A DNA stretch of 64,000 bases from a virus. The stretch covers positions 1 through 64,000 of IMG/VR virus record IMGVR_UViG_3300042475_001686; one strand, given 5' to 3'. This document shows, piece after piece, positions 1-18,646 of this stretch (its first letter is position 1; the number at the start of each line of letters is the position of its first letter). A model generated the notes under the pieces. That model ran no database searches. It saw only the letters and a list, made by a program, of their open reading frames with translations, and was not told the DNA's origin. The position numbers and the translations under genes are program-made.

Positions 1-146
1 TCCATCTCTGTCATTTCGCCAAACGTATACCAGTCTTTCCAAGGTTTATTGTTTTCATAATACTCAATAATTTCTTCAGGGTTTTTTAATGCATTGTGAA
101 AAACCCAAACAGTATCATGTATTTTTTCAATATTGAAATCAGGCAT
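1..146 (-). CDS. 2OG-Fe(II) oxygenase-like protein, N-terminal part
   Basis: Reads leftward off the window edge; 48 residues are visible. The N-terminus (MPDFNIEKIHDTVWVFHNAL, then a DWYTFGEM segment) resembles the N-terminus of the complete oxygenase at 2299-3189 (aromatic-rich NWQDWYIFGKK). Its ATG overlaps the stop of the upstream gene (TAATG), so it belongs to the same oxygenase operon. The catalytic part lies outside the window; the family call rests on the N-terminal similarity and the neighbours. Confidence 0.7.
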   Translation of the reverse strand, partial: MPDFNIEKIHDTVWVFHNALKNPEEIIEYYENNKPWKDWYTFGEMTEM

Positions 147-2302: not shown

Positions 2303-3189
2303 TTTATTCTAATTGCTCCTTCTATGACAGTTCTCTGTGGATGTTCTGTCATATAATCTTCTTGCATTTTTCTAAATACTTCAGGCCATTCTTCTTTGCC
2401 ATACTCTTCTTCCTTCTTTTTCCACTCATCAGAAGCGTCTTCGTAAACCTGCCAGTACATTCTTGTAAAGAACTTTTCATTTTCTTTACAGTTTTCTGCA
2501 GCATGTAGGTATACCTCGTTATCTTTAGTAAGGTAATCAGGATGTCCAGATGGAAAAACCAAGAAATCTCCAGCCTTTGGCTTGTAGTTAATAAGTTTAT
2601 TTCCTATAGCAAAATCTACCCCACCCTTTAAATAGTTATCATTCAAATATGTGGTTGTAGTAAGTACAAACTTATATCCTGGACTCTTTATTGATTCTCT
2701 AATATAATCAGAATGGTATCTCATTGCAAGTTCCCCGCCATTCCACTCTGATCCTTCTGAGTCTACAAAATAACGACATAGGGATGGGCCAGTCCAATTC
2801 CATTTAGGGTGATCTACTCCATAAGAACGAACTGTTTCATTTTTTTCATCTGGTATAGATAGGTTATGCTTTGACATATAGTCATTATTTACCAAATGGA
2901 ATGCTCTAACTAATTCTGTGATAAAGTATCTCTGATCCTCCTGAACCTTACTTGTTGGATCTATATCTTTTAAAATCTTAAGTTCTGTTGCAGTTTTATC
3001 AAAATGAAGTCCGAACTTTTCAATCTTTTTACCGAAGATATACCAATCTTGCCAATTTTCCCATATTGCATCATCATAATCATTAACTGAATCTTTAGCA
3101 ATCTGATACATTCTTTCTGGATCTTCAAATACATTGTTGTAAACAAATATATTTGGATATATCTCTTCTGCTGTAAAGTTTGTACTCAT
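2299..3189 (-). CDS. 2OG-Fe(II) oxygenase, long N-terminal domain
   Basis: 296 aa, the longest of the array. H159-x-D161 (RYHSDY), H229 (YLHAAEN) and R243 (FTRMYW) form the active site; TYLNDNYLKGGVDF replaces the usual LNDD strand. About 140 residues precede the catalytic core and resemble the visible N-terminus at the window's left edge. No strong Shine-Dalgarno sequence is seen (GGGGAATAATGTAATTATG), so coupling to the upstream gene is likely. Confidence 0.9.
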   Translation of the reverse strand: MSTNFTAEEIYPNIFVYNNVFEDPERMYQIAKDSVNDYDDAIWENWQDWYIFGKKIEKFGLHFDKTATELKILKDIDPTSKVQEDQRYFITELVRAFHLVNNDYMSKHNLSIPDEKNETVRSYGVDHPKWNWTGPSLCRYFVDSEGSEWNGGELAMRYHSDYIRESIKSPGYKFVLTTTTYLNDNYLKGGVDFAIGNKLINYKPKAGDFLVFPSGHPDYLTKDNEVYLHAAENCKENEKFFTRMYWQVYEDASDEWKKKEEEYGKEEWPEVFRKMQEDYMTEHPQRTVIEGAIRIK

Positions 3190-3191
3190 AA

Positions 3192-3944
3192 TTACATTAT
3201 TCCCCTTCTAGGATCCCACTGTGATGTCTGTTCAGCAGTAGGGAAAATCCTATAATACTCTTTATTAAAATCTGGCTTAATCTCTCCAGTATGTTCTAAA
3301 ATTTCCCAAAAGAATGGGCAAGTATATCTATCTCCACTTATTACTTCTGATACACCGTGTACATAGTTCATATCGCCTGGGAAGAAATATGCAGAACCTC
3401 TTTTTGGCTTAAACTGTATTCCCTGATTTGGGAAATAGAGTTCTCCTCCTACATAGTCATCGTTTATATAGAATAAACTTGCTATGTCGTAATAAGGAAA
3501 GTCATTGGGCTTTCCAGCGTCTGGTCCAGAGTGTAATTCTTTATCTGCATGCGGAAGTTGATAATATCCTGGTGGCCACTTTACAATTGTTTGTCCTGTT
3601 GGTTGAACTTTTACTTTAAAAAAATCTTCAATGATTGGCTGAAGTCTATTAAAAAGTCCTACTATAACAGGAACAATTTCTGGATTATTTTTATTTAATG
3701 ATGGGGCACTAGCAACTCTATCTTTCCAATATCCAGCATCATATATTACAGTACCGTTTTCGTTTTTATGGCTTTCGGTTACATCCCAAACAGTGATGCT
3801 TCTGGCTGCATTATCTAAAAAGTCAACCTCTTCTTGTGTCATAAAGTTTTCTAGTTCAATAATATTTTCAGGACCACTTCCGAAAAACCCTGATGGGGTT
3901 AAGGATGGTTTTCTAACAACCTCTACTGCTTCTTCTGGCATCAT
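3192..3944 (-). CDS. 2OG-Fe(II) oxygenase, prolyl 4-hydroxylase-like
   Basis: About 250 aa. H-A-D (LPHADK, near residue 132), H of YVHGVSE (near 196) and R of GDRYTC (near 206) form the active site; FYINDDYVGGELYFP is intact. Three ATGs stand in a row. TATAAT (3951-3956) lies exactly 6 nt upstream of the second, so I place the start at 3944 and expect a leaderless mRNA. This promoter may drive the first part of the oxygenase array. Confidence 0.9.
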   Translation of the reverse strand: MMPEEAVEVVRKPSLTPSGFFGSGPENIIELENFMTQEEVDFLDNAARSITVWDVTESHKNENGTVIYDAGYWKDRVASAPSLNKNNPEIVPVIVGLFNRLQPIIEDFFKVKVQPTGQTIVKWPPGYYQLPHADKELHSGPDAGKPNDFPYYDIASLFYINDDYVGGELYFPNQGIQFKPKRGSAYFFPGDMNYVHGVSEVISGDRYTCPFFWEILEHTGEIKPDFNKEYYRIFPTAEQTSQWDPRRGIM

Positions 3945-3956
3945 CATTATATTATA
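3945..3956 (-). promoter_or_regulatory. leaderless -10 (TATAAT-N6-ATG)
   Basis: TATAAT at 3951-3956 on the minus strand with six bases before the second ATG of the oxygenase gene and no Shine-Dalgarno sequence between. This matches the spacing found at many other genes of the window. Confidence 0.7.
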
Positions 3957-4667
3957 TCACCCTGTTACCGTATTATCTTTTACAGAAAGTCTTAATGTCT
4001 TCACTTCATGAGAACCTAAAGACTCTCCCTTTTCATTTACTGCATCTCTATACCAGTCTGTCCACTGCCCAGATGAATTGACAACCTGTGCTGCCTGCCC
4101 ATAGTCTGACAGAGCCTTAAGCCTTAAGCCACCTTCATCAGTATAATTATTAATCTCGATAGAGGTATTGTTTAAGTGAGTTAGAGAAATAGGAATAATT
4201 GTAGCAATTGGAGTTCCTGCCTTTATTACAGTCTCAACATTTGCCCTTTTTGCCTTAATAGCAAGTGGTAATGGATTATCATAAAATGATGTGCTAATTA
4301 AATTTGATAATGTTTCAAAGTCTTCATTAAAATAATTAACTGGATTAATTGTTAAAATGCTTACATCTGGATCTGTTCTAAATACCAAAGATGTATTGAG
4401 ACTTACTGTAGATTGACCTCTTCCAGCATAGGAACCTTCTGGACTCGTAATAGTTATATGTTGATCTGTTTGATCATTAATACCGTCCCATGTAAATACT
4501 ATATCCTGAGTACAAGAAATATTCCATCCTACGACATTAGCCTGAGTTACTGGAAAACATCTGTATGCATGCTTTTCAGAAGTTACATCCATCCAATCTC
4601 TTTTTATAGACATTGGTTCTATTTTGAAAATTCCACCATGCATTTTTTCTACAGATATATTAAACAT
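3957..4667 (-). CDS. DUF6065-like protein
   Basis: 236 aa, function unknown. Sequence features (CFPVTQANVVGW, a later WDG, and AGTPIATIIPISL near the C-terminal third) parallel the protein at 5359-6135, which has ITFTKN and GTPYLQVLPFKREN at matching places; the two are distant paralogs. I associate them with DUF6065 from memory only. It sits between oxygenase genes, with its stop just before the next promoter, suggesting partnership with the oxygenases or their substrates. Confidence 0.6.
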   Translation of the reverse strand: MFNISVEKMHGGIFKIEPMSIKRDWMDVTSEKHAYRCFPVTQANVVGWNISCTQDIVFTWDGINDQTDQHITITSPEGSYAGRGQSTVSLNTSLVFRTDPDVSILTINPVNYFNEDFETLSNLISTSFYDNPLPLAIKAKRANVETVIKAGTPIATIIPISLTHLNNTSIEINNYTDEGGLRLKALSDYGQAAQVVNSSGQWTDWYRDAVNEKGESLGSHEVKTLRLSVKDNTVTG

Positions 4668-5350
4668 TATTCATTTTCCCACTTTGGATCATACATGTCT
4701 GGAGTATGAAACTTTTTGCTATAGTCTAGCATTGTTACAATAGAATATTTTGTTCCAGAGTGAACTGGCATTGCTTGATGTGGATACATAAAGTTAGAAG
4801 GGAAGATATATAAATCTCCTGCCTTTGGTTTAATATTTAAGTCCTGTAATCTAAAATATAACTCTCCGCCATCGTAATCATCATTGATGTATGCTACCAA
4901 AGATACGGTACAGTTATACGAATAACCGTGGTCATGATGTTCCTTGAAGTGCTGACCTGGACCATACTTAATAAAGTTAAATGCTTCCCAATACTTTAGT
5001 GGCATAATGTTGTAATCTCTACGATAGTCATCAACTGCTGGAGCCTGTGCATCATAAACATCCTGCCATATTTTTTGTAACAATAAAGACTCTTCGCTTG
5101 GATCTGACTCAATGTCTGTCTTTTTATACTTAAAATCATAGCAATCACGATAGTCTGGCATTAATTGCTGATACCCAACATATGCTGGTAGCCAGTGATA
5201 TCTTTTTCCTTCTGGAGATAACTCTCCCCAAGGTGCTGGACTGCCCAAGACATCTTCCAATCTATTTATAATATCTAAATTTGGTTTAATAACATTTCTA
5301 TAAACCGTTATTCCATGACCAAGACTTTCTTTTTCTGTCCAAGTTGACAT
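4667..5350 (-). CDS. 2OG-Fe(II) oxygenase, prolyl 4-hydroxylase-like
   Basis: 227 aa from the chosen start. H138-x-D140 (EHHDHG), H191 (YPHQAMP) and K201 (GTKYSIV) are the expected metal and 2OG residues; YINDDYDGGELYF and KPKAGDLYIFPSN are intact. A longer frame begins at 5383, but AGGAG stands 5 nt before the ATG at 5350 and the longer start would overlap the upstream gene by 25 nt, so 5350 is preferred. Closest in appearance to the enzyme at 6135-6842. Confidence 0.92.
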   Translation of the reverse strand: MSTWTEKESLGHGITVYRNVIKPNLDIINRLEDVLGSPAPWGELSPEGKRYHWLPAYVGYQQLMPDYRDCYDFKYKKTDIESDPSEESLLLQKIWQDVYDAQAPAVDDYRRDYNIMPLKYWEAFNFIKYGPGQHFKEHHDHGYSYNCTVSLVAYINDDYDGGELYFRLQDLNIKPKAGDLYIFPSNFMYPHQAMPVHSGTKYSIVTMLDYSKKFHTPDMYDPKWENE

Positions 5351-5358
5351 CTTTGCTC

Positions 5359-6135
5359 CTATTTGTATTCTCTTCTTGTCCAAACTTTATCTTTGTATAC
5401 CCCGCCATCTGGCTGGCGATAAAAGTTTGCGTTATCTACCATTTTACCATAGATCTTGCTTGACTCCAAAATGTCAATATCATGTTGCCAATTTTCTCTT
5501 TTAAAAGGCAATACTTGTAAATATGGAGTTCCTGCTGGGATTGTTCCTTCCCAACCATCTACAATAAAAAATGGAAAACTTCCTAATACTTCTACCTTAT
5601 CAGAATCCACTACTCCTGTTGTATTAAGAAATGGTAGATCAAACCTATTCATTGGGGTCATGAATAAAGCACTGTATCCTTCTGGCAGCCTCATTCCCCA
5701 GTCTGGCATCCATGCAAAATGATCTTTATAGTATCCTTTAGGGTGTTCAAATTGTGGCATCTGTGGCCTTGCTGTACAAAAATCTTTATACATTTCATTT
5801 TGAATTTTCATATCTAGAGATCCTCTAGAGTTTTTAGTAAATGTTATATCACAAGGAGTTTTAAAAACATACCCAGTAATAAAAGCATCCATAATTGCTG
5901 GACAGGCTTTCCATGTTGGTATCATTCCATAATCGTCTGTTGTTCCAGGTTTTGGGAATGGACACACCTCTCTTGGTGCTTTATAGTATTCTCCATTTAC
6001 AGGATTTTTAGCAAACCTATCTGCATCCTTATACCATTGTGGTATTTCTTTTTGTGTTGGAGTTGGAGTAGACTTACTTTTTTCTGTTAGCCAAGGCCTG
6101 TATGCCTTAAAAGATACTAAATTGTACTCATCCAT
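5359..6135 (-). CDS. DUF6065-like protein
   Basis: 258 aa, function unknown. The N-terminal third is rich in Pro/Lys/Trp (PWLTEKSKSTPTP, IPQWYKDADRF), followed by VCPFPKPGTTDD, WKACPAIMDAF and a C-terminal AGTPYLQVLPFKRENW segment. Paralogous to 3957-4667. Its start overlaps the stop of the upstream oxygenase (TAATG). The alternation oxygenase / DUF6065-like / oxygenase / DUF6065-like suggests a functional pairing; no catalytic residues are evident to me. Confidence 0.6.
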   Translation of the reverse strand: MDEYNLVSFKAYRPWLTEKSKSTPTPTQKEIPQWYKDADRFAKNPVNGEYYKAPREVCPFPKPGTTDDYGMIPTWKACPAIMDAFITGYVFKTPCDITFTKNSRGSLDMKIQNEMYKDFCTARPQMPQFEHPKGYYKDHFAWMPDWGMRLPEGYSALFMTPMNRFDLPFLNTTGVVDSDKVEVLGSFPFFIVDGWEGTIPAGTPYLQVLPFKRENWQHDIDILESSKIYGKMVDNANFYRQPDGGVYKDKVWTRREYK

Positions 6136-6842
6136 TACTTATGACCTAACTCATTAATATCAGTCATGATTACGACACAATATTTTGTACCGCTCTTCAT
6201 TGGAAGAGATGCATGCTCATAAATGTAGTTAGATGGGAAAACCGCAATATCTCCGACTCTTGGCTTATGAATATATCCATCTAAGCGTGGGAACTGAATT
6301 TCTCCGCCATCATAGTCGTCATTGATATATATAACTGCTGAAACTGTAGCATTGTAGGCTGGTCCATGGTCAGCATGAATATTGAAGTGTTTTCCTTCAC
6401 CTTCATACTTTACAAAATTAAATGCCTCATAATAGACAACACTAATTCCCCAATACGCTGCATAATTATCTATACAAAACTTTAATTTTTGATAAATTTC
6501 TTCATGAAGATCTATTAACTCTCCATTAAATTCATCTCTTGGCCCTAAGTTTTCTTGCTTATATTTAAAGTCTACACAATCTCTTGCTTTCTTGATTGGT
6601 GTTGTTGAATTAGTTACCTGTGCTTCTGACCAAGCATATCTCTTAGTGCCGTCTAAATTTGACTCAAGTGTTTTAATATATCTATCGGCATCATCTTTAC
6701 TAAAAACATTTCTATAAATATTAAGACCAAGGCCAGGATTTTCTACAACTATTCCACTAGGCAGGGTGCTTGTTGGATATCTATTTGATGCGGTCTCAGA
6801 TCTATCTTTTGTAAACCAGTGGTTTTGATTCTCATCATACAT
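6135..6842 (-). CDS. 2OG-Fe(II) oxygenase, prolyl 4-hydroxylase-like
   Basis: 235 aa. H156-x-D158 (NIHADHG), H210 (YEHASLP) and K220 (GTKYCVV) are visible with YINDDYDGGEIQFP. AAGGAG precedes the ATG. Paralog of 4667-5350: both have CxDFKYK near residue 90 and YxEAFNFxKY before the HxD motif. First gene of this array when read in the direction of transcription. Confidence 0.92.
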   Translation of the reverse strand: MYDENQNHWFTKDRSETASNRYPTSTLPSGIVVENPGLGLNIYRNVFSKDDADRYIKTLESNLDGTKRYAWSEAQVTNSTTPIKKARDCVDFKYKQENLGPRDEFNGELIDLHEEIYQKLKFCIDNYAAYWGISVVYYEAFNFVKYEGEGKHFNIHADHGPAYNATVSAVIYINDDYDGGEIQFPRLDGYIHKPRVGDIAVFPSNYIYEHASLPMKSGTKYCVVIMTDINELGHK

Positions 6843-7591: not shown

Positions 7592-7604
7592 ACTTAATAG
7601 TATA
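7592..7604 (-). promoter_or_regulatory. leaderless -10 (TATACT-N7-ATG)
   Basis: TATACT (minus strand, 7599-7604) is seven bases before the ATG of the zinc-ribbon gene, with no Shine-Dalgarno sequence between. Confidence 0.55.
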
Positions 7605-7624
7605 TCACATCAGGTTTTGATGTT

Positions 7625-8464: not shown

Positions 8465-9556
8465 TTAACCCTGGCAGTTTCCACAATTGCTTGAAGAGCA
8501 CCATAGTGATGGTGGGCAACCCCAAGGATTATTGGACTGGTTTCCGCATTCGCCACTGCAGGATGGGGCTGACACGAAAGAAGGTGGGAAGAACGGGAAG
8601 AATGGGAAGAACGGTGGGAAGAACGGGAAGAACGGTGGGAAGAACGGGAAGAATGGGAAGAATGGTGGGAAGAACGGGAAGAACGGTGGGAAGAACGGGA
8701 AGAATGGGAAATAAGGTGGGAAGAACGGGAAGAATGGTGGGAAGAATGGGAAGAACGGGAAGTAAGGTGGGAAGAACGGGAAGTAAGGTGGGAAGAATGG
8801 GAAGAAGGGTGGGAAGAATGGTGGGAAGAATGGGAAGAATGGTGGGAAGAACGGGAAGAATGGTGGGAAGAATGGGAAGAAGGGTGGGAAAAATGGAGGG
8901 AAAAACGGCGGGAAGAATGGAAAGAACGGCGGGGTAGTATTAACAGTTCCAGTTGTAGCACCTGCAGATGATCCATTACCATTAATTGCAACAATAGTAT
9001 ATGTCTGAGATCCTGGTGCTGCTCCTGGGTCATTAGCATCATATGATGTTGCAGCAGCAGAAATACCAGTGTAACTTGATCCATCTGAACCAGTAATTGT
9101 ATAGGAGGTAATTGCTTTACCACCAGTTGCTGGTGCTGTCCATGTTATTCTGTTTGTATTTGCAGACAAAGCAGATCCAGAAGGTGATCCTGGTGTGTTT
9201 GGTACAGTTGTTACTGTAATTGATCCAGTTGTATCTGTTGCTGGGTTTGAGTTTGCTGTACCAGCATTATTCTTACCTCTAACAGTAACTGTATAAGTTC
9301 CAGCAGGAAGTCCAGTTAGTGTATATGAGGTTGAAGATGATCCTGTCTCAACTGTGCTAGTTGCTGGGTTTGTAGTAACTACATAAGTTGTTGCTGCAGG
9401 AGAAGTAGCAGGCAAAGTCCAAGATAAGTTAATCGCACCATTATTCCAACCTCTACCAGTTCCTACATCTGTACCAGTTAGACCTGTTACTGGATCTGGT
9501 TGTAAAAAGTTATCCTGTGCTGATGACTTAATACCTTTTCTTTTGCTTGTTGCCAT
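8465..9556 (-). CDS. Fn3-domain fibre protein with FFPPFF repeat and Cys-rich tail
   Basis: 363 aa. Residues about 25-205 form two fibronectin type III-like domains (INLSWTLPA...YTLTGLPAGTYTVTV and NRITWTAPATGGKAITSYTI). Residues about 209-330 are almost only Phe and Pro in FFP/FFPP units, with occasional Tyr. The last 35 residues are Cys-rich (CSGECG, CPPSLWC, CGNCQG). The repeat and Cys module recur in the protein at 16636-18009. Probably a surface-exposed tail or fibre component. GGAG precedes the start. I know no described family with such a repeat. Confidence 0.85.
   Translation of the reverse strand: MATSKRKGIKSSAQDNFLQPDPVTGLTGTDVGTGRGWNNGAINLSWTLPATSPAATTYVVTTNPATSTVETGSSSTSYTLTGLPAGTYTVTVRGKNNAGTANSNPATDTTGSITVTTVPNTPGSPSGSALSANTNRITWTAPATGGKAITSYTITGSDGSSYTGISAAATSYDANDPGAAPGSQTYTIVAINGNGSSAGATTGTVNTTPPFFPFFPPFFPPFFPPFFPFFPPFFPFFPPFFPFFPPFFPPFFPFFPPYFPFFPPYFPFFPFFPPFFPFFPPYFPFFPFFPPFFPFFPPFFPFFPFFPPFFPFFPPFFPFFPFFPPSFVSAPSCSGECGNQSNNPWGCPPSLWCSSSNCGNCQG
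8574..8935 (+). repeat. polypurine GGGAAGAAYGG tandem repeat (coding, antisense)
   Basis: About 360 bp in which the + strand is built from GGGAAGAACGG / GGGAAGAATGG / GGTGGGAAGAA units and is nearly pure purine. The minus strand encodes the FFPP repeat. The tract could form triplex or slip during replication, giving length variation of the Phe/Pro domain. Confidence 0.9.
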
Positions 9557-9587
9557 GCTATTCTCCTTTTTCTACTATTAAATTTTA

Positions 9588-11555
9588 TTACGCTGAGAGG
9601 TCGCCCATTACTACCCATGTATCTGTTGCTCTCTTGAAAAGAGTTGCAGATGACCACTGAGCACGTAACTTCAAACCTGGTGTAGCATTTACAGTTACAC
9701 CTACTGCTCCAGCAATTGTAATCTGACCTGCGCCAACCTGTAGTAGATCGATAGATGTTCCTACTGGGAAGGCTGTGGTTGAATTTGCTGGAATTGTTAC
9801 AGTAAATCCTGTTGCCTTATTGCATTCAATCATGCTATCTCTCAAGGCTAATCCACCTGTAGAGAGGTTATAGGTATCTGTTACTGTATTGATTGTAGTT
9901 CTTGATGGAACGCCTTCTTTTGTTTGAGTTCCGTCTGAGAAAACCACTCCAGAAGATGGAGTAACTGTGGTAGCCTCAAGTGCTCCTACAGCCAAGGCAT
10001 CTAAAGATCCTTGTGTAAAGTTTACAGTTGTTGTAGGTTCGTCTGTAACACCCTTAAACAACTTCCACTTTCCAGCAGATGAGTCACGAACAATACCTGC
10101 ATGCTGATATGTTCCATCGTTAAAGGATGAAACAATACCAAGGTCAACAAGGTTTCCTGTGTTTCCTTCACCGATATAAATAAGTGGGTCAGAAACCACT
10201 AAGTCTGTAGCAGAAACTGTTGTTGTTGTTCCTTGTACTGTAAGGTTGCCAGTAACAGTAAGTGCTGCTGCCGTAGTAGTTCCAGTAAATGTTGGTCCAG
10301 CGAGATTAGCCTTAAGGTCAAGTGCTGTTTGTGTAGCAGTTGAAACTGGCTTATCTGCATCTGATGTATTGTCTACATTTCCTAATCCAACCATTGTCTT
10401 TGTGATACCTGCAACGGTACCAGTAAATGTTGGTGAAGCAAGTGGAGCCTTTGCAGCAAGATCTGTAGTGAGATCTGCAATCTTAGACTGTGCAATTGCT
10501 GCTGAAGCATTTATGTCAGCATTTACAATTGTGCCATCTGCAATCTTGGCAGAAGTTACTGCACCATCAAGAATTTTAGCAGATGTAACAGCATCTCCAG
10601 CAATCTTGTCTGCAGTTACAGCAGAGTTAACAATCTTATCTGTTGAAACTGTATTATCTGTTGGAGTTCTTGTATCTGAAAGACGAGCATCGTCTGTTAG
10701 AACAAGTGCTGTAGTGTCTGCAATGCCGTGTACGCTTGTTGTATCTGAAGTGTGAGCATTTAGAGCACCTGTTATTTCTGTTCCAACATATGACTGTGTT
10801 GCAAGTTCTGCAGTGTCTACAATTCCGTGTACGTTAGTTGTAACTGCACTGTGAACAGTTGCTGAATCTACATATGCTTGGGTAGCAAGATCTGCTGTAT
10901 TACCAATACCATGTACGTTTGTTGTGTCTGAGTTATGTGCACTTACGGCACCTGATACTGCATTATCTGCATATGTTTGGGTAGCAAGATCTGCTGTATT
11001 TGCAATACCATGAACATTTGTTGTATCATTGTTATGCTCTGCTAAGTCTGCATCAAGAACAATAAGACTTGTGTCTGCAATGCCATGTACGTTTGTGCTA
11101 TCAGAATTATGTGTGCTTACTGCACCATCAGCATATGCTTCAGTAGCAAGGTCTGCTGTATTTACAATTCCATGTACATTTGTTGTAACAGCATTATGTA
11201 CTTCTGCAGCATCTACATATGCCTCAGTGGCAAGGTCTGCTGTATTTGTAATTCCGTGCACATTAGTGGAAAGATTTGTATGAGAAGAGAGATTTGTTGC
11301 TACTGTTATAAAGAAATCTGGATCGTCGCCAAGAGCAGCAGCGAGTTCGTTGAGTGTATTAAGAACACCTGGAGCGCCGTCTAGGATCGCATTTCCATCT
11401 ACATAATAGTTTAGGGCAGACCATAGTGATGATCCATTACCTATCTTAAACTTACCTGTGTCGGTTTCAAAACCGATTTCACCTGCTGCTAAAATTGGGT
11501 TAGCGCCTGACCACTGTGCTGCGGTTCCTCTGCGCTGTTGCATTCTTGTTGCCAT
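9588..11555 (-). CDS. long tail-fibre protein with VHGI repeats
   Basis: 655 aa. The N-terminus (QQRRGTAAQWSGANPILAAG, then GEIGFETDTGKFKIGNGSS) is the virion-attachment type seen in many tail fibres and tropism determinants. Residues about 90-285 hold seven TxVHGIxxTAxLA repeats, a trimeric-shaft-like pattern. A GLGNVDNTSDADKPVS segment follows, then a C-terminal domain (ECNKATGFTVTIP ... WVVMGDLSA) shared with 18017-18646. AAGGAG is upstream. Receptor binding is the likely role. Confidence 0.88.
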   Translation of the reverse strand: MATRMQQRRGTAAQWSGANPILAAGEIGFETDTGKFKIGNGSSLWSALNYYVDGNAILDGAPGVLNTLNELAAALGDDPDFFITVATNLSSHTNLSTNVHGITNTADLATEAYVDAAEVHNAVTTNVHGIVNTADLATEAYADGAVSTHNSDSTNVHGIADTSLIVLDADLAEHNNDTTNVHGIANTADLATQTYADNAVSGAVSAHNSDTTNVHGIGNTADLATQAYVDSATVHSAVTTNVHGIVDTAELATQSYVGTEITGALNAHTSDTTSVHGIADTTALVLTDDARLSDTRTPTDNTVSTDKIVNSAVTADKIAGDAVTSAKILDGAVTSAKIADGTIVNADINASAAIAQSKIADLTTDLAAKAPLASPTFTGTVAGITKTMVGLGNVDNTSDADKPVSTATQTALDLKANLAGPTFTGTTTAAALTVTGNLTVQGTTTTVSATDLVVSDPLIYIGEGNTGNLVDLGIVSSFNDGTYQHAGIVRDSSAGKWKLFKGVTDEPTTTVNFTQGSLDALAVGALEATTVTPSSGVVFSDGTQTKEGVPSRTTINTVTDTYNLSTGGLALRDSMIECNKATGFTVTIPANSTTAFPVGTSIDLLQVGAGQITIAGAVGVTVNATPGLKLRAQWSSATLFKRATDTWVVMGDLSA

Positions 11556-11614
11556 TTATCTCTCCTTGTGGTATTTCTACCGTTTTATTTCTGTGCTAAT
11601 TATAACATCAGTTT

Positions 11615-12070
11615 TTAGTTGAAGTTATCTACTGGGCTACCGCCATCATAAACCATAGTCCATGAGTTGGTATTATAAGATCCACCATCTACTGGAGAAC
11701 CTTGTGGGTCATTAAAACTACCTCCACTTACGAAGGTAGAAACAATAAGTCCTGTTCCATCAATTGCTGTATCATGAATATGTTGTGGCAAGTTCAATGT
11801 ATCATCGATTGTTGCCATTGTTAGCCATGATCCAGAATAATAAACATTAACTCTTGATGTTAATGTGTCAAACCATAAATCACCATTTTCAGGTGAAGAG
11901 GGAGGGGTAGAACCTACTGGAATTCCTCCAGACAATGCGTCAACATATGCCTTAGTTGCAGCGTGAGTACCTAATGTAGGCGTTGCTACATCTACTGTAC
12001 CTCCGAAACTTCCGCCACCAGTGACGATAAGTCCATTTTTAACCTTGAAGTCCTTGTTGACTGTTGCCAA
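11615..12070 (-). CDS. short tail-fibre protein
   Basis: 151 aa from a TTG start. The N-terminus LATVNKDFKVKNGLIV aligns with MATVVKDFKVKNGLIV of the next fibre gene, and GGGAG is 8 nt before this TTG; a GTG at 12079 would abut the same Shine-Dalgarno sequence, so 12070 is preferred. Contains THAATKAYVD and ENGDLWFDTLTSRVNVY, both common in fibre proteins, and a Gly/Ser-rich C-terminus (VDGGSYNTNSWTMVYDGG). Confidence 0.8.
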   Translation of the reverse strand: MATVNKDFKVKNGLIVTGGGSFGGTVDVATPTLGTHAATKAYVDALSGGIPVGSTPPSSPENGDLWFDTLTSRVNVYYSGSWLTMATIDDTLNLPQHIHDTAIDGTGLIVSTFVSGGSFNDPQGSPVDGGSYNTNSWTMVYDGGSPVDNFN

Positions 12071-12099
12071 GATTACCACTCCCTCTTCTATTTATTTTG

Positions 12100-14004
12100 T
12101 TATGCTAAAAGCGTTCCGATAACAGCAACTGTTGAGGTGTTGTTAGCGGTTGTGACACGAAGACGAACATCGTTGCCAGAAACATCTGCTGAAACTGATC
12201 CAAGAGAACCATTTGTTCCAACCATTGCGTATTCTGTAATAGCGACATTGTCTGAAGTGTCTAGTGTCAAGATAACCTTGGATACATCTGTATGAGATCC
12301 ATTAGCAATCTTAACTAGGAATTCAGCAGAACGATATTCTGCCTTCAACCATGAAACTGCTGTGTTTGTGCTTGCTGTAGCGATAGAAGCGGTTGCTGCT
12401 ACCTGCTTTGCAACTGAGTTGAGTTCAACTGCTGTGAAGTTTGGAACAACTGCTTCAAGAGCAGATACTGCACGAGCATCTGTGAAGTAAAGGTTTGTTG
12501 TACCCTCATCAAGATCATCTGTATCAGAATCTGCAACACCGTTTTCTGCGGTAATAACAAGACCTGAACCATTACCTGTAATTGTGATATTTGTAAGGGT
12601 TGTTCCAGGACCAGTTAAGAGGTCTGCTGCTGAAGTCTTAGCCTTAGCATCTGTAAAGTATTCATTTGTACCTTCTTCGATGTCTGTTGTGCTAAGTGCA
12701 TTGATAGCATTTGTAATTGCATTATTACGATCTGAAACTTCATCAGAAATCTTTCCATCTGTGTAGATATTAGCATTTTGTTCTGCAGTAAGGGCTACGC
12801 CATCAGCGTATCCTTCGTATGCAGTTGTGATTATACCTTCACGAGTATCTGTGTAAGCCTTTGCTGCATTTTCTGCATCTAGTGCTTCAGCAGAAGCAAA
12901 TGCACGAGTTGCAGTTACAGTCTCATCAATTTCAAATGTTGTACCATCAAGAGTTAAACCGTTACCAGCAAGGTATGTACCTTGACCTGAGAACTGTGTC
13001 CAATCCTGACCAGCGAAAGATGATAGATAGTGATCAGCCTGTACCCATGCTGTTGAAGCATAGTTGTTGCCTTCCATTACGAAGACTGCTGCTCCTACCA
13101 ATTCAGAGAAAGCATCTGCATCTGCTGGACGAGATGCTACAAGTGTTGCACCTGATACTGAAAGTTCCCAGATACCATTTTCTGAATCTGTTGTTTGTCC
13201 TGTAAGAAGCAAGCGATATCCACCATCGTTAATATCTAGTGGTGCATGTCCATCGATTACTGCTCCGACAAAATCTCCTGCTACGTTTACGTTAGAAGTT
13301 GCAAGAAGGTTTACTGCTGCCTTCCAGTTAAGACCAGAAGATAGACCATCTGCATATGCCTTAGCATTATTTTCTGCAGTTGTTGCTGCATTGTCTGCGT
13401 ATAACTCATATGCGGTTGTTATTGCAATTTCACGAGCATCTGTGTAATCGTTAGCATCTGAAAGTGCTGCGTTTGCTTTTGTTGTTGCATCTGATGCTGC
13501 ATCTGCAATTGCATCATTCTTAGCAAGAAGAATTGCTGCATCACGAGCAATAACTTCGTCTTGAATTTCTCCATCTGTGTATGTTTCTGCTGCAGCAATT
13601 GCTTGGTTCTTTGCTGTTTCAACTTCTGCATCTGTTGCAAAAGATGAATCCAAGGTTACTGTAATTTGAGCATTTGCAGTGCCATCAAAAGATGCTGAAC
13701 CTGTTGCATCTCCAGTTAATGAAATTGTACGAGAAGTCTCAAGTGCTGTTGCTGTATCTGCATTACCAGTTACATCACCTGTAAGATTTGCTGTAATTGT
13801 ACCCGCAGCAAAGTTGCCATTAGCATCACGCTTTACAACTGTGTTTGGGGTATTTGCTGAAGTGGCTGTGCCACCAATTAAATTGACGATGTAATCTTGA
13901 TCGTCTTGTTTCTTTGTAAGAATGTCATGGTTGTTGATGGTACCTGTTGTGCCTTCAACAATCAGACCATTCTTTACCTTAAAGTCTTTTACGACTGTTG
14001 CCAT
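12100..14004 (-). CDS. long tail-fibre protein with YFTDAR repeats
   Basis: 634 aa. The N-terminal FKVKNGLIVEG region is followed by NLTGDVTGNADTATALET and ISLTGDATGSASFDGT, classic fibre-shaft motifs, then Ala-rich YADGxxxTAEQNA repeats and two TNxYFTDARA motifs. The last ~85 residues (SAEFLVKIANGSHTDVSKVI ...) match the C-terminal domain of the neighbour 14021-14467. AAGGAG before the ATG. Virion location is inferred from these motifs. Confidence 0.88.
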   Translation of the reverse strand: MATVVKDFKVKNGLIVEGTTGTINNHDILTKKQDDQDYIVNLIGGTATSANTPNTVVKRDANGNFAAGTITANLTGDVTGNADTATALETSRTISLTGDATGSASFDGTANAQITVTLDSSFATDAEVETAKNQAIAAAETYTDGEIQDEVIARDAAILLAKNDAIADAASDATTKANAALSDANDYTDAREIAITTAYELYADNAATTAENNAKAYADGLSSGLNWKAAVNLLATSNVNVAGDFVGAVIDGHAPLDINDGGYRLLLTGQTTDSENGIWELSVSGATLVASRPADADAFSELVGAAVFVMEGNNYASTAWVQADHYLSSFAGQDWTQFSGQGTYLAGNGLTLDGTTFEIDETVTATRAFASAEALDAENAAKAYTDTREGIITTAYEGYADGVALTAEQNANIYTDGKISDEVSDRNNAITNAINALSTTDIEEGTNEYFTDAKAKTSAADLLTGPGTTLTNITITGNGSGLVITAENGVADSDTDDLDEGTTNLYFTDARAVSALEAVVPNFTAVELNSVAKQVAATASIATASTNTAVSWLKAEYRSAEFLVKIANGSHTDVSKVILTLDTSDNVAITEYAMVGTNGSLGSVSADVSGNDVRLRVTTANNTSTVAVIGTLLA

Positions 14005-14020
14005 TTTATTATCTCCTTAG

Positions 14021-14467
14021 TTATGCCTTAAGTCCAATTCGTGCAAAACGAACTGTGACTGGCTTAATCGCAGGGTCTGGAGTAACCGTCAAGGCCACTG
14101 TATTTCCAGTCCTGGAGACGCTAATGGTGCCAATATTCCCATCATTGTCTATTGTGCCATATTCAGAGACGTTTACATTTGTACCGTCTACCAAGATGGT
14201 CAACTCTGTTGCATAGAATTTATTGTCGCCTGCTGTTGTCTTAGCAATAGAAACAATATACTTAACCATACGCCACTCTGTGGCATCAAAGTTATCAATT
14301 ACTGTGGCATTCTCAATACCTGTAATTGTATTTTCATTATTGCCCATTGAGCCAAGGTCCGTAGAACGGGCTGAGGCTGAGTCAATTAAATCTTCATAAT
14401 CTTGTTGCGTGGGGCGATCCCCAGTTTCAAACTTTGTCTTTAGTGTAGGTATGGATATCTTTGCCAT
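14021..14467 (-). CDS. fibre-tip-like beta protein
   Basis: 148 aa. A short N-terminal part (PTLKTKFETGDRPTQQDYED) is followed by a beta domain (WRMVKYIVSIAKTTAGDNKF, then VDGTNVNVSEYGTIDNDG) homologous to the last ~85 residues of the fibre at 12100-14004. It may be a stand-alone copy of that tip domain. TATAAT at 14474-14479 is 6 nt from the ATG, so this gene has its own leaderless promoter. Confidence 0.7.
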   Translation of the reverse strand: MAKISIPTLKTKFETGDRPTQQDYEDLIDSASARSTDLGSMGNNENTITGIENATVIDNFDATEWRMVKYIVSIAKTTAGDNKFYATELTILVDGTNVNVSEYGTIDNDGNIGTISVSRTGNTVALTVTPDPAIKPVTVRFARIGLKA

Positions 14468-14479
14468 GGTGATATTATA
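14468..14479 (-). promoter_or_regulatory. leaderless -10 (TATAAT-N6-ATG)
   Basis: TATAAT on the minus strand with exactly six bases to the start codon at 14467. Confidence 0.7.
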
Positions 14480-14490
14480 ACTCCTTTTTG

Positions 14491-14739
14491 TTACAAAATA
14501 TAATTACTGTATCCAATAATTTGAAGGGGTATTGGGGGTGGATTATTCTTTGAATATCCAAATACACCAACATTAATAAATTGGACACGGAAAGGCAGAA
14601 CTTCTTCTATTTTCGCTTTTGGTTGTATGTGATCAAACCTTACATACCTTTTATCTATTTCTTTGATCTGTGCGTGAGATCTTCTATGTGTTGTGTTAAA
14701 TAGTTCTTGGTTTACTGGTATAAGATTTTGATTAATCAT
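14491..14739 (-). CDS. hypothetical structural-module protein
   Basis: 82 aa, unrecognised; Asn/Gln/Pro-rich with FRVQFINVGVFGYSKNNPPP. Overlaps the upstream gene by 4 nt, so it is translationally coupled to the beta-sandwich protein. Confidence 0.6.
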   Translation of the reverse strand: MINQNLIPVNQELFNTTHRRSHAQIKEIDKRYVRFDHIQPKAKIEEVLPFRVQFINVGVFGYSKNNPPPIPLQIIGYSNYIL

Positions 14740-15125
14740 TCTGTTACATCTTCAAGGATAACCATTGATCCTTTGGCTACCGTCCAGACTCTTCCCTCAG
14801 ACAAAAGTTCTGTGAGTTGAATGTCAAAGATATCTCCTGTCTCTAAAAGTTCTGATTGTGCAGATGTTAGATTAACTGTAAAACTTCCTTCTGTATCTTG
14901 AAATTCAATTGGCTCTGGAGATAATGAAACAATAATGTTGTCAGTAGATGGACGATAAATGTCCATTTTAATTTCCCAATCCTCTAAGTACAATGGCTCT
15001 CTTACGTCATTGGTTACATAAACTCTAAATGCTGCAGAGTCTCCTCTAACTACCGTCCAACGAATTTCTGGTGGGGCAGCACCTAATGCATAAGAGTCTG
15101 TGGGTTGATTTCGGAAGGTAGCCAT
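14736..15125 (-). CDS. beta-sandwich tail protein (LtfC-like)
   Basis: 129 aa. The pattern EIRWTVVRGDSAAFRVYVTN ... YLEDWEIKMDIYRP ... GSMVILEDVTE resembles small beta-sandwich proteins of actinophage tail modules and parallels 22926-23324 (TIQWRVIRGDTATLRVEF). Probably a virion adaptor. TATAAT (15132-15137) is 6 nt from the ATG: leaderless. Confidence 0.65.
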   Translation of the reverse strand: MATFRNQPTDSYALGAAPPEIRWTVVRGDSAAFRVYVTNDVREPLYLEDWEIKMDIYRPSTDNIIVSLSPEPIEFQDTEGSFTVNLTSAQSELLETGDIFDIQLTELLSEGRVWTVAKGSMVILEDVTE

Positions 15126-15137
15126 GTGTTGATTATA
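15126..15137 (-). promoter_or_regulatory. leaderless -10 (TATAAT-N6-ATG)
   Basis: TATAAT at 15132-15137 on the minus strand, six bases from the start codon at 15125; no Shine-Dalgarno sequence. Confidence 0.7.
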
Positions 15138-15142
15138 TCATA

Positions 15143-15658
15143 TTAGGCTAATCCAGCCTTCAATGCTCCCCATGTTCCATTACCTTTTGCCTGTATAACG
15201 ATTACTCCAGTTGTAGGATTGGCAACGGCAACGATTCCAATTGCTCCTCCATTTACAGTAGTTGTAAGAGCACCAGAAGAATCTACATATAATAATTCTC
15301 CTACAGCAAAACTACTTGTATTAACATTTGTTAAAACACCAGCAACAACAACTTCTCCGCTTGCACCGTCTGCTAATGATGTTTTTGTCAAACCAAGAAA
15401 AGGTTTATTATCTGAAAGACCTGAAGTAAATAATGCAATCTGTGTTTTATTATTTGTGTGACCTACAGCATATACTGGTTTTGCTGCACCTATAGTTGAT
15501 CCTGAATTATTTATTACCTTTACCCGCACATTTGAAGCATCAAGAGAAGATATCGCATCATCAACATCATCTGCTAATTTTTTAATATCATTATGCACAT
15601 TTACAGAGTCTGTTGCCTCTGGATATGTTAGACCATAGTTATTAGTTATTTCAGCCAT
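15143..15658 (-). CDS. virion fibre/decoration-like protein
   Basis: 171 aa. Begins NNYGLTYPEATDSVNVHNDI (fibre-like N-terminus), followed by a beta domain VKVINNSGSTIGAAKPVYAV ... GEVVVAGVLTNVNTSSFAVG ... GAIGIVAVANPTTGVIVIQA that resembles capsid- or tail-decoration modules. TATAAT is 8 nt from the start. Virion role inferred. Confidence 0.65.
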   Translation of the reverse strand: MAEITNNYGLTYPEATDSVNVHNDIKKLADDVDDAISSLDASNVRVKVINNSGSTIGAAKPVYAVGHTNNKTQIALFTSGLSDNKPFLGLTKTSLADGASGEVVVAGVLTNVNTSSFAVGELLYVDSSGALTTTVNGGAIGIVAVANPTTGVIVIQAKGNGTWGALKAGLA

Positions 15659-15679
15659 AGAGAATAATTATATCATTAT

Positions 15680-15709
15680 TTGACTACCTTCCCTAAATTG
15701 TGTTATACT
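15680..15709 (+). promoter_or_regulatory. strong promoter of the lysozyme-like gene
   Basis: TTGACT (15680-15685), 18-nt spacer, TATACT (15704-15709) preceded by TGT (extended -10). A short hairpin GGCACC/GGTGTC lies in the leader (about 15722-15741) before AAGGAGGAA. Confidence 0.8.
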
Positions 15710-15763
15710 AAGAAGTAACATGGCACCCCTAAAAAGGTGTCATTCGTTTCTAAGGAGGAAACT

Positions 15764-16324
15764 ATGATTAACTTTATGAATAATAACAGGAACATCATTG
15801 GTACACTCAGCATATTGGCTATGTTTGGCGTTTGGTCAAATGTCGCCAATGCTTCTGAAAACCGATTAGATAGTAAAACTATCGTGCTTGAAGAGACTAT
15901 AGAGGCCACGCAAGTGGCCAAAAGTGTTTCTAGGGCTAAAGAAGATCAGTTAGAAAAATATCAAAACGCTACATCTCTATCTGATAAAGATCTAAAAAAT
16001 CTACTGAAACTAGTAGGTTTTGAAGGTCAAAATCTCAAGGAGGCATGGGCTATTGCTAAAAAAGAAAGTAATGGTCGACCTTTTGCATTTAATGGCAACT
16101 ATGAAACTGGAGACAGTTCTTATGGTATTTTTCAAATAAATATGCTTGGAATGCTTGGTCCTGATCGTCGTACTAAGTATGACTTAGATCATAATGTTGA
16201 CTTGTTTAATCCCGTCATAAATGCTCAAATTGCATTTCATATGTCTAATGGCGGGGAAAACTGGAGTGCCTGGAAAGGTATAACCCCCAGAACAAGGGAA
16301 TTAATGGCAAAATTTCCACATTAA
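15764..16324 (+). CDS. secreted lysozyme/transglycosylase-like protein
   Basis: 186 aa from the ATG after AAGGAGGAA. Residues 1-30 form a signal peptide (hydrophobic IIGTLSILAMFGVW, cleavage after ANA). A Lys/Glu-rich linker leads to a lysozyme-fold domain: KKESNG (putative catalytic E101) and DSSYGIFQIN are the conserved blocks of SLT/lysozyme-like muralytic enzymes. Isolated plus-strand gene in a minus-strand region, with its own promoter and terminator. It could be an endolysin exported by the host secretion system or a virion-associated lysin. Confidence 0.85.
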   Translation: MINFMNNNRNIIGTLSILAMFGVWSNVANASENRLDSKTIVLEETIEATQVAKSVSRAKEDQLEKYQNATSLSDKDLKNLLKLVGFEGQNLKEAWAIAKKESNGRPFAFNGNYETGDSSYGIFQINMLGMLGPDRRTKYDLDHNVDLFNPVINAQIAFHMSNGGENWSAWKGITPRTRELMAKFPH

Positions 16325-16328
16325 TTAA

Positions 16329-16376
16329 ATAGGGCTTGATAATAAAATATTTTTATATCAGGCCCTATTTTTTTTT
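16329..16376 (+). terminator. intrinsic terminator
   Basis: 13-bp stem ATAGGGCTTGATA (16329-16341) with TATCAGGCCCTAT (16356-16368) followed by a T-run, directly after the lysozyme-like gene. Confidence 0.9.
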
Positions 16377-16614
16377 ACCATTTATTAATTGGGCATGAAG
16401 ATTTTTCTAAACTAACTTTCGCATACATTAAACATCCACATTTTTTACATTGTTTTGTAAGTTGAATTAATTCTGGACAACCAAGACATATTTGATATCT
16501 TTTATTTGCATTTTCTATAGTTGTTTTTTCTACGCTTGGATTTAATAAATGCCAAGGTCTTGTTTCACCAAGATTTTCTATATATCTTTTTAATGGTGAC
16601 TTTTTTTCTTCCAT
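16375..16614 (-). CDS. small zinc-ribbon protein, copy 2 (DUF6171-like)
   Basis: 79 aa. RPWHLLNP, CLGCPEL, TKQCKKCGCLM and CPINKW match the paralog at 7349-7591 throughout. Four to six Cys suit zinc binding. Lies between the Phe/Pro-repeat gene and the terminator of the convergent lysozyme-like gene. Function unknown. Confidence 0.75.
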   Translation of the reverse strand: MEEKKSPLKRYIENLGETRPWHLLNPSVEKTTIENANKRYQICLGCPELIQLTKQCKKCGCLMYAKVSLEKSSCPINKW

Positions 16615-16635
16615 TTTATTTTTTCAATCTATAAA

Positions 16636-18009
16636 TTAGAATGTACAGTTACCACATGTAGTAGAGGTACAGTACAGTGAAGGTGGACAGTCATATCCTG
16701 CCCCACCGCCTGCTTGGCTTCCGCATTCTAGTGTACAAGTACTTGTAAATGTTGGTGGGAAGAAAGGACTCTGGAACGTTGGTGGGAAGAATGGTGTAAC
16801 ACTAAACGTTGGTGGGAAGAAAGGACTCTGGAACGTTGGTGGGAAGAATGGCGCCTGGAATGTTGGTGGGAAGAATGGCGCCTGGAATGTTGGTGGGAAG
16901 AATGGCGCCTGGAATGTTGGTGGGAAGAATGGCGCCTGGAAGTTCGGAGGGAAGAATGGATTAACCGTACATGTAGGAGTTCCTGATGCTTGTGTAGGAC
17001 CACAGACCCATCCAATTGGAGGATATCCGTTTGCGTTTTCTTGAGCAGCATATGCATCAGCACAGGACGATGTTGTTGAGAAAGGACCGTTTGGATTGTT
17101 ATTGAAATCACAGTATCCGTAGTAACTTGTTGTAGTCTGTTGGAACGTTGGTGGGAAGAATGGTGACTGGAAAGTTGGTGGGAAGAACGGTGTAAATGTA
17201 GGTGGGAAGAACGGAGGAGTGGTGCAAGATGTTATCGGAGTTGTTGTAACAGAGCCAGTCAATGATGCACTTATTGTGAAACAGAAAGTCTCAGCAGCAT
17301 TAGTTGCCTCTGTTGAGTTTGCAGCAGTAACAGATCCAACAGTATTATCATCGCAGCAGAAGTAGTATGTTGTTGTTCCTGAACTAAAGAATGGTGGGAA
17401 GAATGGAGGGAAGAATGGTGGGAAGAATGGAGTAATGGTGCATTCTGGAGTTCCATTTTGTGCTGTTGGTCCGCAAACCCATCCAATTGGTGGGTATCCA
17501 TTTGCGTTTTCCTGAATAGTATATGCTTCAGCACAGGACAATGTTGTTGAGAAAGGACCAACAGGGTTATTGGCTAAATCACAGTATCCGTAATAATTTA
17601 ATACTTGCTGGAACGTTGGAGGGAAGAACGGTGTAAATGTAGGTGGGAAGAACGGTGACTGGAATGTAGGTGGGAAGAACGGTGACTGGAATGTAGGTGG
17701 GAAGAACGGTGACTGGAATGTAGGTGGGAAGAACGGTGACTGGAATGTAGGTGGGAAGAATGGAGGGGCAACATAAGTATAATAAACAAAGGTTACATCA
17801 GTATCATAATCAACTAATGTGTCTGCTACTGGAACTTGAGAAGCAACCTTATTATCAAGTTGTGAATCTGAAGTAACTATAGAAGAGTCACCAACATTCT
17901 TAAGCCCTGAGTTTGTTATTGTGGTAATTGCTACGTTCTTTAAAAGACCTACAAGTTGCGGGACCTTTACCATTCCCTTTGCTAAAAACGGCCATAATGA
18001 ACTTAGCAT
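16636..18009 (-). CDS. PASTA-domain fibre protein with PFFPPTFQ repeats
   Basis: 457 aa. Residues about 13-80 form a PASTA domain (VKVPQLVGLLKNVA ... SGLKNVG ... SDSQLDNKVASQVPVAD), a peptidoglycan-binding module of actinobacterial kinases and PBPs. Then come blocks of APFFPPTFQ / SPFFPPTFQ repeats separating two Cys-containing domains (YYGYCDxxNNPxGPFSTT ... GWVCGPT) and a third Cys segment (FCCDDNTVG). It ends in the same Cys-rich module as the 363-aa protein (CTLECG, CPPSLYC, CGNCTF). Likely binds the cell wall at the virion tip. Start weakly supported. Confidence 0.85.
   Translation of the reverse strand: MLSSLWPFLAKGMVKVPQLVGLLKNVAITTITNSGLKNVGDSSIVTSDSQLDNKVASQVPVADTLVDYDTDVTFVYYTYVAPPFFPPTFQSPFFPPTFQSPFFPPTFQSPFFPPTFQSPFFPPTFTPFFPPTFQQVLNYYGYCDLANNPVGPFSTTLSCAEAYTIQENANGYPPIGWVCGPTAQNGTPECTITPFFPPFFPPFFPPFFSSGTTTYYFCCDDNTVGSVTAANSTEATNAAETFCFTISASLTGSVTTTPITSCTTPPFFPPTFTPFFPPTFQSPFFPPTFQQTTTSYYGYCDFNNNPNGPFSTTSSCADAYAAQENANGYPPIGWVCGPTQASGTPTCTVNPFFPPNFQAPFFPPTFQAPFFPPTFQAPFFPPTFQAPFFPPTFQSPFFPPTFSVTPFFPPTFQSPFFPPTFTSTCTLECGSQAGGGAGYDCPPSLYCTSTTCGNCTF
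16749..16950 (-). repeat. PFFPPTFQ-coding tandem repeats (first block)
   Basis: Near-identical 27-bp units (GGTGGGAAGAA plus spacer) encode the repeats. Further blocks of the same unit lie at about 17143-17215, 17390-17432 and 17615-17765 in the same gene; one block is recoded as FFPPFFPPFF. Confidence 0.85.
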
Positions 18010-18016
18010 TACGGAC

Positions 18017-18646
18017 CTACGCCATCAAATCGCCAATAAGGACCCAGGTATTCGTATCAGTTTTGATAAGAGTTGCGCCAGAATACCTTGCAGCAATTTT
18101 CTTGTTTGAATTTTTGCTATTAATTGTTACACCAACTGTAGCAGCAAAAGTTACGTTGCCAGTATTTAATCTTATTACATCAAGTCTCTGCCCTATAGCG
18201 AACGGTACAGAAGAATTCAGTGGAACTGTAATTGTTCTATCAGTAGCAGAATCAATTAATAATGTTTGTCCTGCATCTGCAAGGCCTAAAGTATAGTCAT
18301 TAGTCTTTGTAGCAAGATAGGCAGTATCCAACATACCAACCCAAGAAGTTCCATTATAAATTTGAACTTGGTTAATATCTGTTCCACCATCTGTTTGCTC
18401 AATAAAACAAACAGTTCCCTTAACGGGTGATGCAATTACAGCATTTCTTGAACTAGGGTTTTGAAATCTATTTACTCCAGCCTTGGCACGAATAACATCA
18501 TTTACAGTTACTACTGCGCCAAAGTTATGTACTTGAGTCCAAGTGTAAGGAACATTTGTATTAGCAACGCCAGCGATTGCATACCAAGTTTCGGATGCAG
18601 CATCATACATATATGCAACTTTGCTATCTGAACTAATATGTGCCAT
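18017..18646 (-). CDS. tail-fibre protein
   Basis: 209 aa. SKVAYMYDAASETWYAIAG resembles the signature of tail proteins that carry a xxxWxxI hub; the C-terminal ~85 residues (LIDSATDRTITVPLNS ... NTWVLIGDLMA) are homologous to the C-terminus of the 655-aa fibre. Start overlaps the upstream stop region (TAATG). Confidence 0.78.
   Translation of the reverse strand: MAHISSDSKVAYMYDAASETWYAIAGVANTNVPYTWTQVHNFGAVVTVNDVIRAKAGVNRFQNPSSRNAVIASPVKGTVCFIEQTDGGTDINQVQIYNGTSWVGMLDTAYLATKTNDYTLGLADAGQTLLIDSATDRTITVPLNSSVPFAIGQRLDVIRLNTGNVTFAATVGVTINSKNSNKKIAARYSGATLIKTDTNTWVLIGDLMA

Follow-up and report, generated by a model that had tools for sequence, protein, structure and literature searches.

The window analysed here covers positions 1 to 64,000 of a record of 117,492 bases from a freshwater virus of bacteria (IMG/VR IMGVR_UViG_3300042475_001686). 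On its minus strand it carries two genes for proteins with long proline-rich repeats, here named FP1 and FP2, which lie in a run of tail-fibre genes, and, 3′ of FP1, an array of genes for 2-oxoglutarate- and Fe(II)-dependent (2OG-Fe(II)) oxygenases (Table 1). An original prediction, made without database searches, had pointed to two Phe-Pro repeat genes some 7 kb apart whose products end in one Cys module. Both open reading frames (ORFs) are present as predicted, with 7,079 bases between them, and both proteins do end in ECG...CPPSLxC...CGNC; what the prediction passed over is the array downstream of FP1, whose enzymes resemble prolyl 4-hydroxylases (P4Hs).

Table 1. Features of the FP1-FP2 region of the window, in order of position
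Feature	Position	Strand	Evidence
2OG-Fe(II) oxygenase	146..877	-	PF13640 3.9e-9
2OG-Fe(II) oxygenase	886..1545	-	PF13640 7e-11
2OG-Fe(II) oxygenase	1538..2302	-	PF13640 1.4e-9
Probable 2OG-Fe(II) oxygenase, under Pfam cut-off	2299..3189	-	PF13640 22.2 bits vs 27
2OG-Fe(II) oxygenase	3192..3947	-	PF13640 2.3e-7
DUF6065 gene within the oxygenase array	3957..4667	-	PF19541 2.4e-28
2OG-Fe(II) oxygenase, query for reverse test and fold search	4667..5383	-	PF13640 9e-16; P4H fold
2OG-Fe(II) oxygenase	6135..6842	-	PF13640 1.5e-10
FP1, 363 aa, Fn3-Fn3 / Phe-Pro rod / Cys tip	8465..9556	-	ORF, Pfam, sequence
Cys-rich tip of FP1, 38 residues (ECG...CPPSLWC...CGNC)	8468..8581	-	same type as FP2 tip
FFP/FFPP rod of FP1, residues 210-325, 116 residues	8582..8929	-	sequence
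Two Fn3 domains of FP1	8939..9487	-	Pfam fn3, two stretches, 2e-11; AlphaFold2 pLDDT ~95
Tail-fibre gene between FP1 and FP2 (Mtd_N)	9588..11555	-	PF18454 5.5e-16; tail PHROGs
Structural/tail-fibre gene between FP1 and FP2	12100..14004	-	phrog_697, phrog_7389
FP2, 457 aa, PASTA-like / PFFPPTFQ rods / Cys domains / Cys tip	16636..18009	-	ORF; orthologues with other Pro-rich rods
Cys-rich tip of FP2	16639..16737	-	sequence
First PFFPPTFQS rod of FP2	17605..17763	-	sequence
PASTA-like domain of FP2	17782..17970	-	Pfam PF03793, 22.5 bits, cut-off 23.2
Gene for a tail protein, immediately upstream of FP2; several FP2-like orthologues have this type of domain as anchor	18017..18646	-	phrog_8780

The rod of FP1 is composed solely of FFP, FFPP and YFPP units, while the rods of FP2 contain many 9-mers of the form PFFPPTFQ(S/A); neither contains Gly, and hence neither has Gly-X-Y repeats. 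The Fn3 domains proposed for FP1 are clear in Pfam, and a Foldseek search of FP1 against viral models returns Fn3 proteins, the top ones from uncultured Caudovirales phages. The PASTA domain proposed for FP2 falls just under the Pfam threshold; in the relative L028 the same match reaches 19.6 bits (PF03793 cut-off 23.2).

The assignment of FP1 and FP2 as fibre proteins is well supported by sequence and context, and FP1 and FP2 themselves are presumably located in the virion. Both genes stand in a run of tail-fibre genes, FP2-like orthologues begin with anchors that match tail PHROGs, and one relative ends in a Peptidase_S74 (S74) domain. Fifteen further genomes have a second proline-rich fibre upstream of FP1, and several of these second fibres start with anchors matching the phrog_8780 minor tail protein and related PHROGs. 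The fibre run also contains a lysozyme-like gene on the opposite strand (15737-16324, +; SLT_3, 1.8e-14) and a collagen-like tail-fibre gene (20925-21647, -; phrog_1806 among the matches); given the latter, Pro-containing shafts of two kinds may be present in this phage.

The array itself (146-6842) is co-directional and follows FP1 after a few unassigned genes. Six of its seven PF13640 genes score above the 27-bit cut-off, and it is interrupted by the DUF6065 gene and by one unassigned gene. Beyond the window, the record has two more PF13640 matches at 115.6-117.3 kb; another two, at 42-43 kb, stand apart from the array. Over the whole record eight of ten matches are above cut-off. In a near-identical relative, G027, the counterparts of the matches at 197-535 and 117020-117298, with equal scores, adjoin one another, and the array is thus probably continuous across the ends of a circular genome. 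DUF6065 genes recur in such arrays (8 of 78 sampled genes; the one at L006:14243-14962 by resemblance only).

Alignment of the array enzymes shows H149 and D151 to be invariant and H202 to be conserved in at least 90%, giving the HxD...H iron ligands, and a Lys or Arg ten residues further on occupies the basic 2OG-binding position in the rows shown. When the array profile was compared with the PDB it found prolyl 3-hydroxylase 1, bacterial P4Hs, PKHD hydroxylases, lysyl hydroxylases and the P4H of chlorovirus PBCV-1 (5c5t); the best matches are to prolyl 3- and 4-hydroxylases, with TET-like enzymes lower. The AlphaFold2 model of the oxygenase at 4667-5383 has a predicted local distance difference test (pLDDT) score of 92, and its top Foldseek matches are the Pseudomonas putida P4H, an algal P4H with a (Ser-Pro)5 peptide, and PHD2, with PBCV-1 5c5t also found. 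From these sequences and this model, protein hydroxylation, most likely of proline, would be the natural expectation for the activity of the array enzymes.

Proline-rich rods and their linkage to oxygenases

Since low-complexity filtering masks the rods in tblastn searches, we searched instead with a degenerate DNA pattern for FFPPFFPPFF, in IMG/VR and in bacterial and archaeal genomes. The pattern occurs in at least 120 IMG/VR stretches, and in only 28 stretches of 84,980 bacterial and archaeal genomes (257 Gb). By our reading just four of the 28 are real arrays (L144, L150, L159 and L161), all of them in metagenome-assembled genomes, and these are probably viral, as their contigs also carry PF13640 genes. 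Most of the 28 are short and isolated, and we reject the idea that the rods are ordinary bacterial repeats. Nor are they due to chance or to faulty assembly, the latter an outcome that would have undone the original prediction: rods are found on many independent contigs, and close FP2 relatives vary in length by entire repeat units (457, 466 and 548 residues).

Among 125 distinct rods, 1,230 FFPP and 799 FFP units are intermixed in no single fixed order. The residue preceding Pro is Phe in 2,028 of the 2,029 units, and at the first aromatic position 88% have Phe and 11% Tyr. Phe is encoded by TTC in 91% of rod codons, against 18% elsewhere in the same loci; this bias might perhaps reflect the avoidance of T runs, or the origin of the rods from one ancestral unit. 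The only PDB homology found for the rod, to the heptads of the RNA polymerase II C-terminal domain, is a compositional match and was set aside.

The Phe-Pro rod that the original prediction saw as the fibre repeat is real, yet it is one of several interchangeable proline-rich rods. In orthologues that have the Cys domains of FP2 and, some of them, its PASTA-like start as well, PFFPPTFQ is replaced by (PVTP)n, (APSPVAP)n, (TP)n or (APTPT)n. It is thus proline, and not the aromatic residues, that is common to all of the rods, and their repeats, FFPP, (TP)n, (APSPV)n and (PVTP)n, are of the kinds that P4Hs use.

The linkage of these rods to oxygenase genes is well supported by comparison of sequenced contigs, by gene density and Fisher tests. 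PF13640 genes are present on every one of 30 contigs of 42-105 kb selected by rods or FP2 homology, with a total of 201 in 2.06 Mb (97.5 per Mb). In two control sets, small and not habitat-matched, 30 viral contigs picked by an arbitrary 15-mer have a single PF13640 gene (1/30 contigs, 0.84 Mb) and 30 picked for collagen-like GPT repeats have four, on two contigs (1.63 Mb). A second set of rod contigs, mostly of PASTA type or FK-ended, has PF13640 genes in 27 of 29 (two records overlap the first set).

The linkage is also polar and reciprocal. In loci found by the rod pattern alone, oxygenases recognised by a profile built from the window genes account for 224 of 551 genes at positions +1 to +8, compared with 5 of 321 at -8 to -1. 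When a single window oxygenase was used as sole query, 80 loci were recovered, and an FFPP rod lies upstream in all 40 that have at least 5 kb of upstream sequence, although these loci are close relatives in their oxygenase and thus not fully independent. Enrichment confined to the immediately following gene is not seen (26 of 77 genes directly downstream, 23 of 78 elsewhere in the same loci); the whole region downstream of the rod is full of oxygenases, so that the informative contrasts are downstream against upstream and rod contigs against others. In cultured phages, a search with the array oxygenase tested gave only distant, cyanophage-type matches, and none in actinophages with a related terminase.

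The association appears to span several phage lineages. The window terminase is shared by 14 of 37 rod contigs (51-100% identity), with one marginal match and none in the rest, and several lineages are therefore likely, incomplete contigs also contributing. The terminase homologue in the record of L017 (G029, 5855-7612) contains 26 stop codons, and this record is either decayed or error-rich. For the window phage an actinobacterial host is indicated by its gene content: it has a WhiB gene (PF02467 at 58692-58865, 1.1e-12), and its terminase is ~56% identical to that of Streptomyces phages (Karimac in Stanwilliamsviridae). Published isolates on bacteria of the acI clade (Nanopelagicales) are 39-kb phages (PMC10202952). 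Elsewhere in the window are a tryptophan-halogenase-like gene in this actinophage (55577-57121, -; phrog_2928, 2e-103) and a gene for a metallopeptidase-like protein (61631-63100, -; M66, slightly below cut-off).

Exchangeable C-terminal modules

The ends of the rod proteins were surveyed in 127 ORFs, some of them incomplete, and in loci found later. The N-terminal part may be Fn3, PASTA-like or other. At the C-terminus are many Cys-rich tips, nothing beyond ...PPxFK, S74, an apparently split S74, or a Hint-like domain. The Cys module shared by FP1 and FP2 is real, as first described, but it now appears as one of many exchangeable tips whose place can be taken by S74 or Hint. A DNA match to the CGNC pattern at 71,010 falls in none of the listed ORFs and was discarded.

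S74 chaperones trimerise phage fibres and then cut themselves off, and their presence in the rod family supports the fibre reading. In L060 an S74 chaperone (3.6e-11) starts immediately after the rod end FFPPAFK, and the common ...FK end could, we suggest, mark the S74 cleavage point. In other loci S74 is apparently split, the rod gene ending with an S74-like start and the next gene having the remainder (L095:4876-5353, L108:7114-8265 and L133:324-1680; L076 and L079 likewise); among the 77 genes that directly follow rods, 3 give S74 matches as stand-alone genes. By Pfam, neither FP1 nor FP2 of the window has an S74 domain.

Some rods are followed by a Hint-like (hedgehog/intein-type) domain that starts at a Cys and often ends near His-Asn (L057, L101, L100, L127, L047, L072, L099, L121, L132, L419 and L425). 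Its Pfam matches are weak and below cut-off; by its sequence it may be a self-processing module on a phage fibre. Directly after rods, 4 of the 77 genes match glutathione peroxidase (GSHPx; L094, L020, L074 and L044, loci assigned by sequence resemblance), possibly thiol-redox partners of the fibres.

Loci whose oxygenases are 82-100% identical can have wholly different rod tips, implying that tips are exchanged. Within single genomes, on the other hand, the ends of the two fibres clearly match in the window genome and in 7 of 15 others (five Cys-tip types and one Hint type). The summed within-genome similarity exceeds that of all 20,000 permutations, also with near-duplicates removed, an indicative result since the pairs were picked by eye. 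Such diversity, combined with sharing inside a genome, fits a target-binding module.

Possible functions and relation to known systems

Why should a phage place so many oxygenases beside its fibre genes? Modular architecture, gene linkage, enzyme family and tip sharing are established by sequence. The reading of them that we favour, with some confidence, is that FP1, FP2 and their relatives are tail fibres with exchangeable tips on proline-rich shafts, and that phage enzymes hydroxylate these shafts. Each fibre would begin with an anchor, which may be an Fn3 pair, a PASTA-like domain or a tail-protein domain; the proline-rich rod would form its shaft, and at the C-terminus would come a module open to exchange: a small Cys-rich tip, a whole or split S74 chaperone, a Hint domain, or none. 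We infer that the shaft most likely has an extended, polyproline-like form and that its prolines would be hydroxylated by 2OG-Fe(II) oxygenases which the phage itself encodes; hydroxylation would stiffen the shaft, keep the very hydrophobic Phe-Pro rods soluble, or prime sites for glycosylation. The tips and other C-terminal modules would bind a target, presumably a receptor, or aid assembly, and would be swapped between phages and copied between both fibres of one phage. The broader proposal, on which we consider the balance to be even, is that the prolyl-hydroxylase-type array acts on proline-rich tail fibres as a phage protein-modification system, a bacterial-virus counterpart of the pathway for collagen and hydroxyproline-rich glycoproteins (HRGPs), in which the individual enzymes would differ in the positions or partner residues that they serve.

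Several observations weigh against hydroxylation of the shafts. 2OG oxygenases have many substrates, and the TM-scores of the oxygenase model to P4Hs are only 0.5-0.6. Its best fold match, the P. putida P4H, was solved in complex with EF-Tu, making action on a host protein a live rival. Only FP1 adjoins the array, FP2 lying 8-10 kb upstream, and the control sets are small and not matched for habitat. In the AlphaFold2 monomer of FP1 the rod has pLDDT 55-63 and no secondary structure, rod and tip being unresolved. Finally, cyanophage S-SCSM1 (L426, 7885-16907) has seven genes for 2OG oxygenases interspersed among tail-fibre genes; these fibres are not proline-rich, and we rejected S-SCSM1 as a second example of the association. 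It is thus conceivable, though distinctly less probable, that the fibres are as described and the array serves another target (EF-Tu, 2-oxoglutarate or nitrogen status, DNA, a glycan or the cell wall), being merely the next cassette of a late operon. The EF-Tu complex and the S-SCSM1 cluster would suit such an arrangement, as would the proposals that cyanophage 2OG genes influence 2-oxoglutarate levels or DNA repair, the presence of DUF6065 and other enzymes within the array, and the number of different oxygenases, 6-11, which seems large for a single substrate. It accounts poorly, however, for a linkage that is strongly polar and specific to proline-rich rods, for protein prolyl and lysyl hydroxylases being the closest solved relatives, and for the lack of any match to the tested oxygenase in cultured actinophages with a related terminase.

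Two further explanations we regard as improbable, the second even more so. The rods could be unmodified hydrophobic Phe-Pro shafts of the kind that the original prediction suggested, stiff polyproline-type rods covered with aromatic side chains and ending in a disulfide knot, with the oxygenases playing no role. The near-invariance of Phe before Pro does suggest a defined structure, and the tips are Cys-rich, but the TP, APSPV and PVTP rods of orthologues imply that aromatics are not essential in FP2, and the oxygenase linkage would be left unexplained. Alternatively, FP1 and FP2 might be cell-surface or secreted adhesins made during infection; PASTA domains are indeed known from cell-wall proteins, yet both genes lie inside the tail-fibre run, tail anchors begin the FP2-like orthologues, and the S74 chaperone occurs in the rod family.

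If shaft hydroxylation is correct, it would be, to our knowledge, the first hydroxyproline-type fibre chemistry in bacteriophages; the Gly-free Phe-Pro rods would be a new shaft material, and the large set of exchangeable Cys-rich tips may determine which hosts are infected by phages of uncultured freshwater bacteria. In aquatic phages, genes for 2OG-Fe(II) oxygenases are common and lack an explanation, their use having been called cryptic (PMC9301287), and the close linkage with one class of fibre protein, polar and seen in both directions of search, gives these enzymes a concrete, testable substrate. In the original prediction, FP1 and FP2 resembled no known fibre family. Consistent with this, the open-licence literature yielded no description of such rods or of their linkage to oxygenases, although an account in a subscription journal is possible, and a filtered tblastn search of cultured phages, in which the low-complexity filter masks the rods, gave no match to FP1 or FP2.

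Elements of the system are nevertheless familiar. Trimeric collagen-like tail fibres of phages (EPclA, PMC3368898) have a shaft of Pro-containing repeats with terminal globular parts, a type of shaft like that of FP1 and FP2; the rods here are without Gly-X-Y, and contigs with collagen-like fibres generally lack an oxygenase array (PF13640 in 2/30). In comparison with Peptidase_S74 fibres, the relative L060 has S74 after its rod, whereas FP1 and FP2 have Cys tips instead. T4-like cyanophages resemble the window phage in that a single phage has many PF13640 genes, some of them next to genes for tail fibres (PMC3037559, PMC9602691), and the function of their 2OG oxygenases is described as not specifically investigated (PMC9602691). 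Their enzymes are at most 39% identical to the window oxygenase among the matches listed, and S-SCSM1 has no proline-rich rods beside them.

The chlorovirus PBCV-1 has a single P4H and repeats of PAPK type. This virus-encoded enzyme (vCPH; Eriksson et al. 1999, cited in PMC9301287) has been proposed to act on proline-rich repeats of viral proteins. There the virus is eukaryotic; here an array of 6-11 enzymes lies beside the tail fibres of phages. As far as we know, Phe-Pro rods do not occur as an HRGP motif. The HRGPs of plants and algae, such as the Chlamydomonas mastigoneme (PMC11015965), nonetheless have, as here, proline-rich rods ((TP)n, (AP/SP)n, PP) between globular or Cys-rich parts, and hydroxylation stiffens their extended polyproline-like rod (PMC11015965). 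They too are served by dedicated prolyl hydroxylases, and an algal P4H with a (Ser-Pro)5 peptide is among the fold matches of the phage oxygenase. The differences are that the virus described here is bacterial, that the likeness of the rods is one of composition only, and that hydroxylation and glycosylation are proposed for the phage fibres by analogy with the HRGPs.

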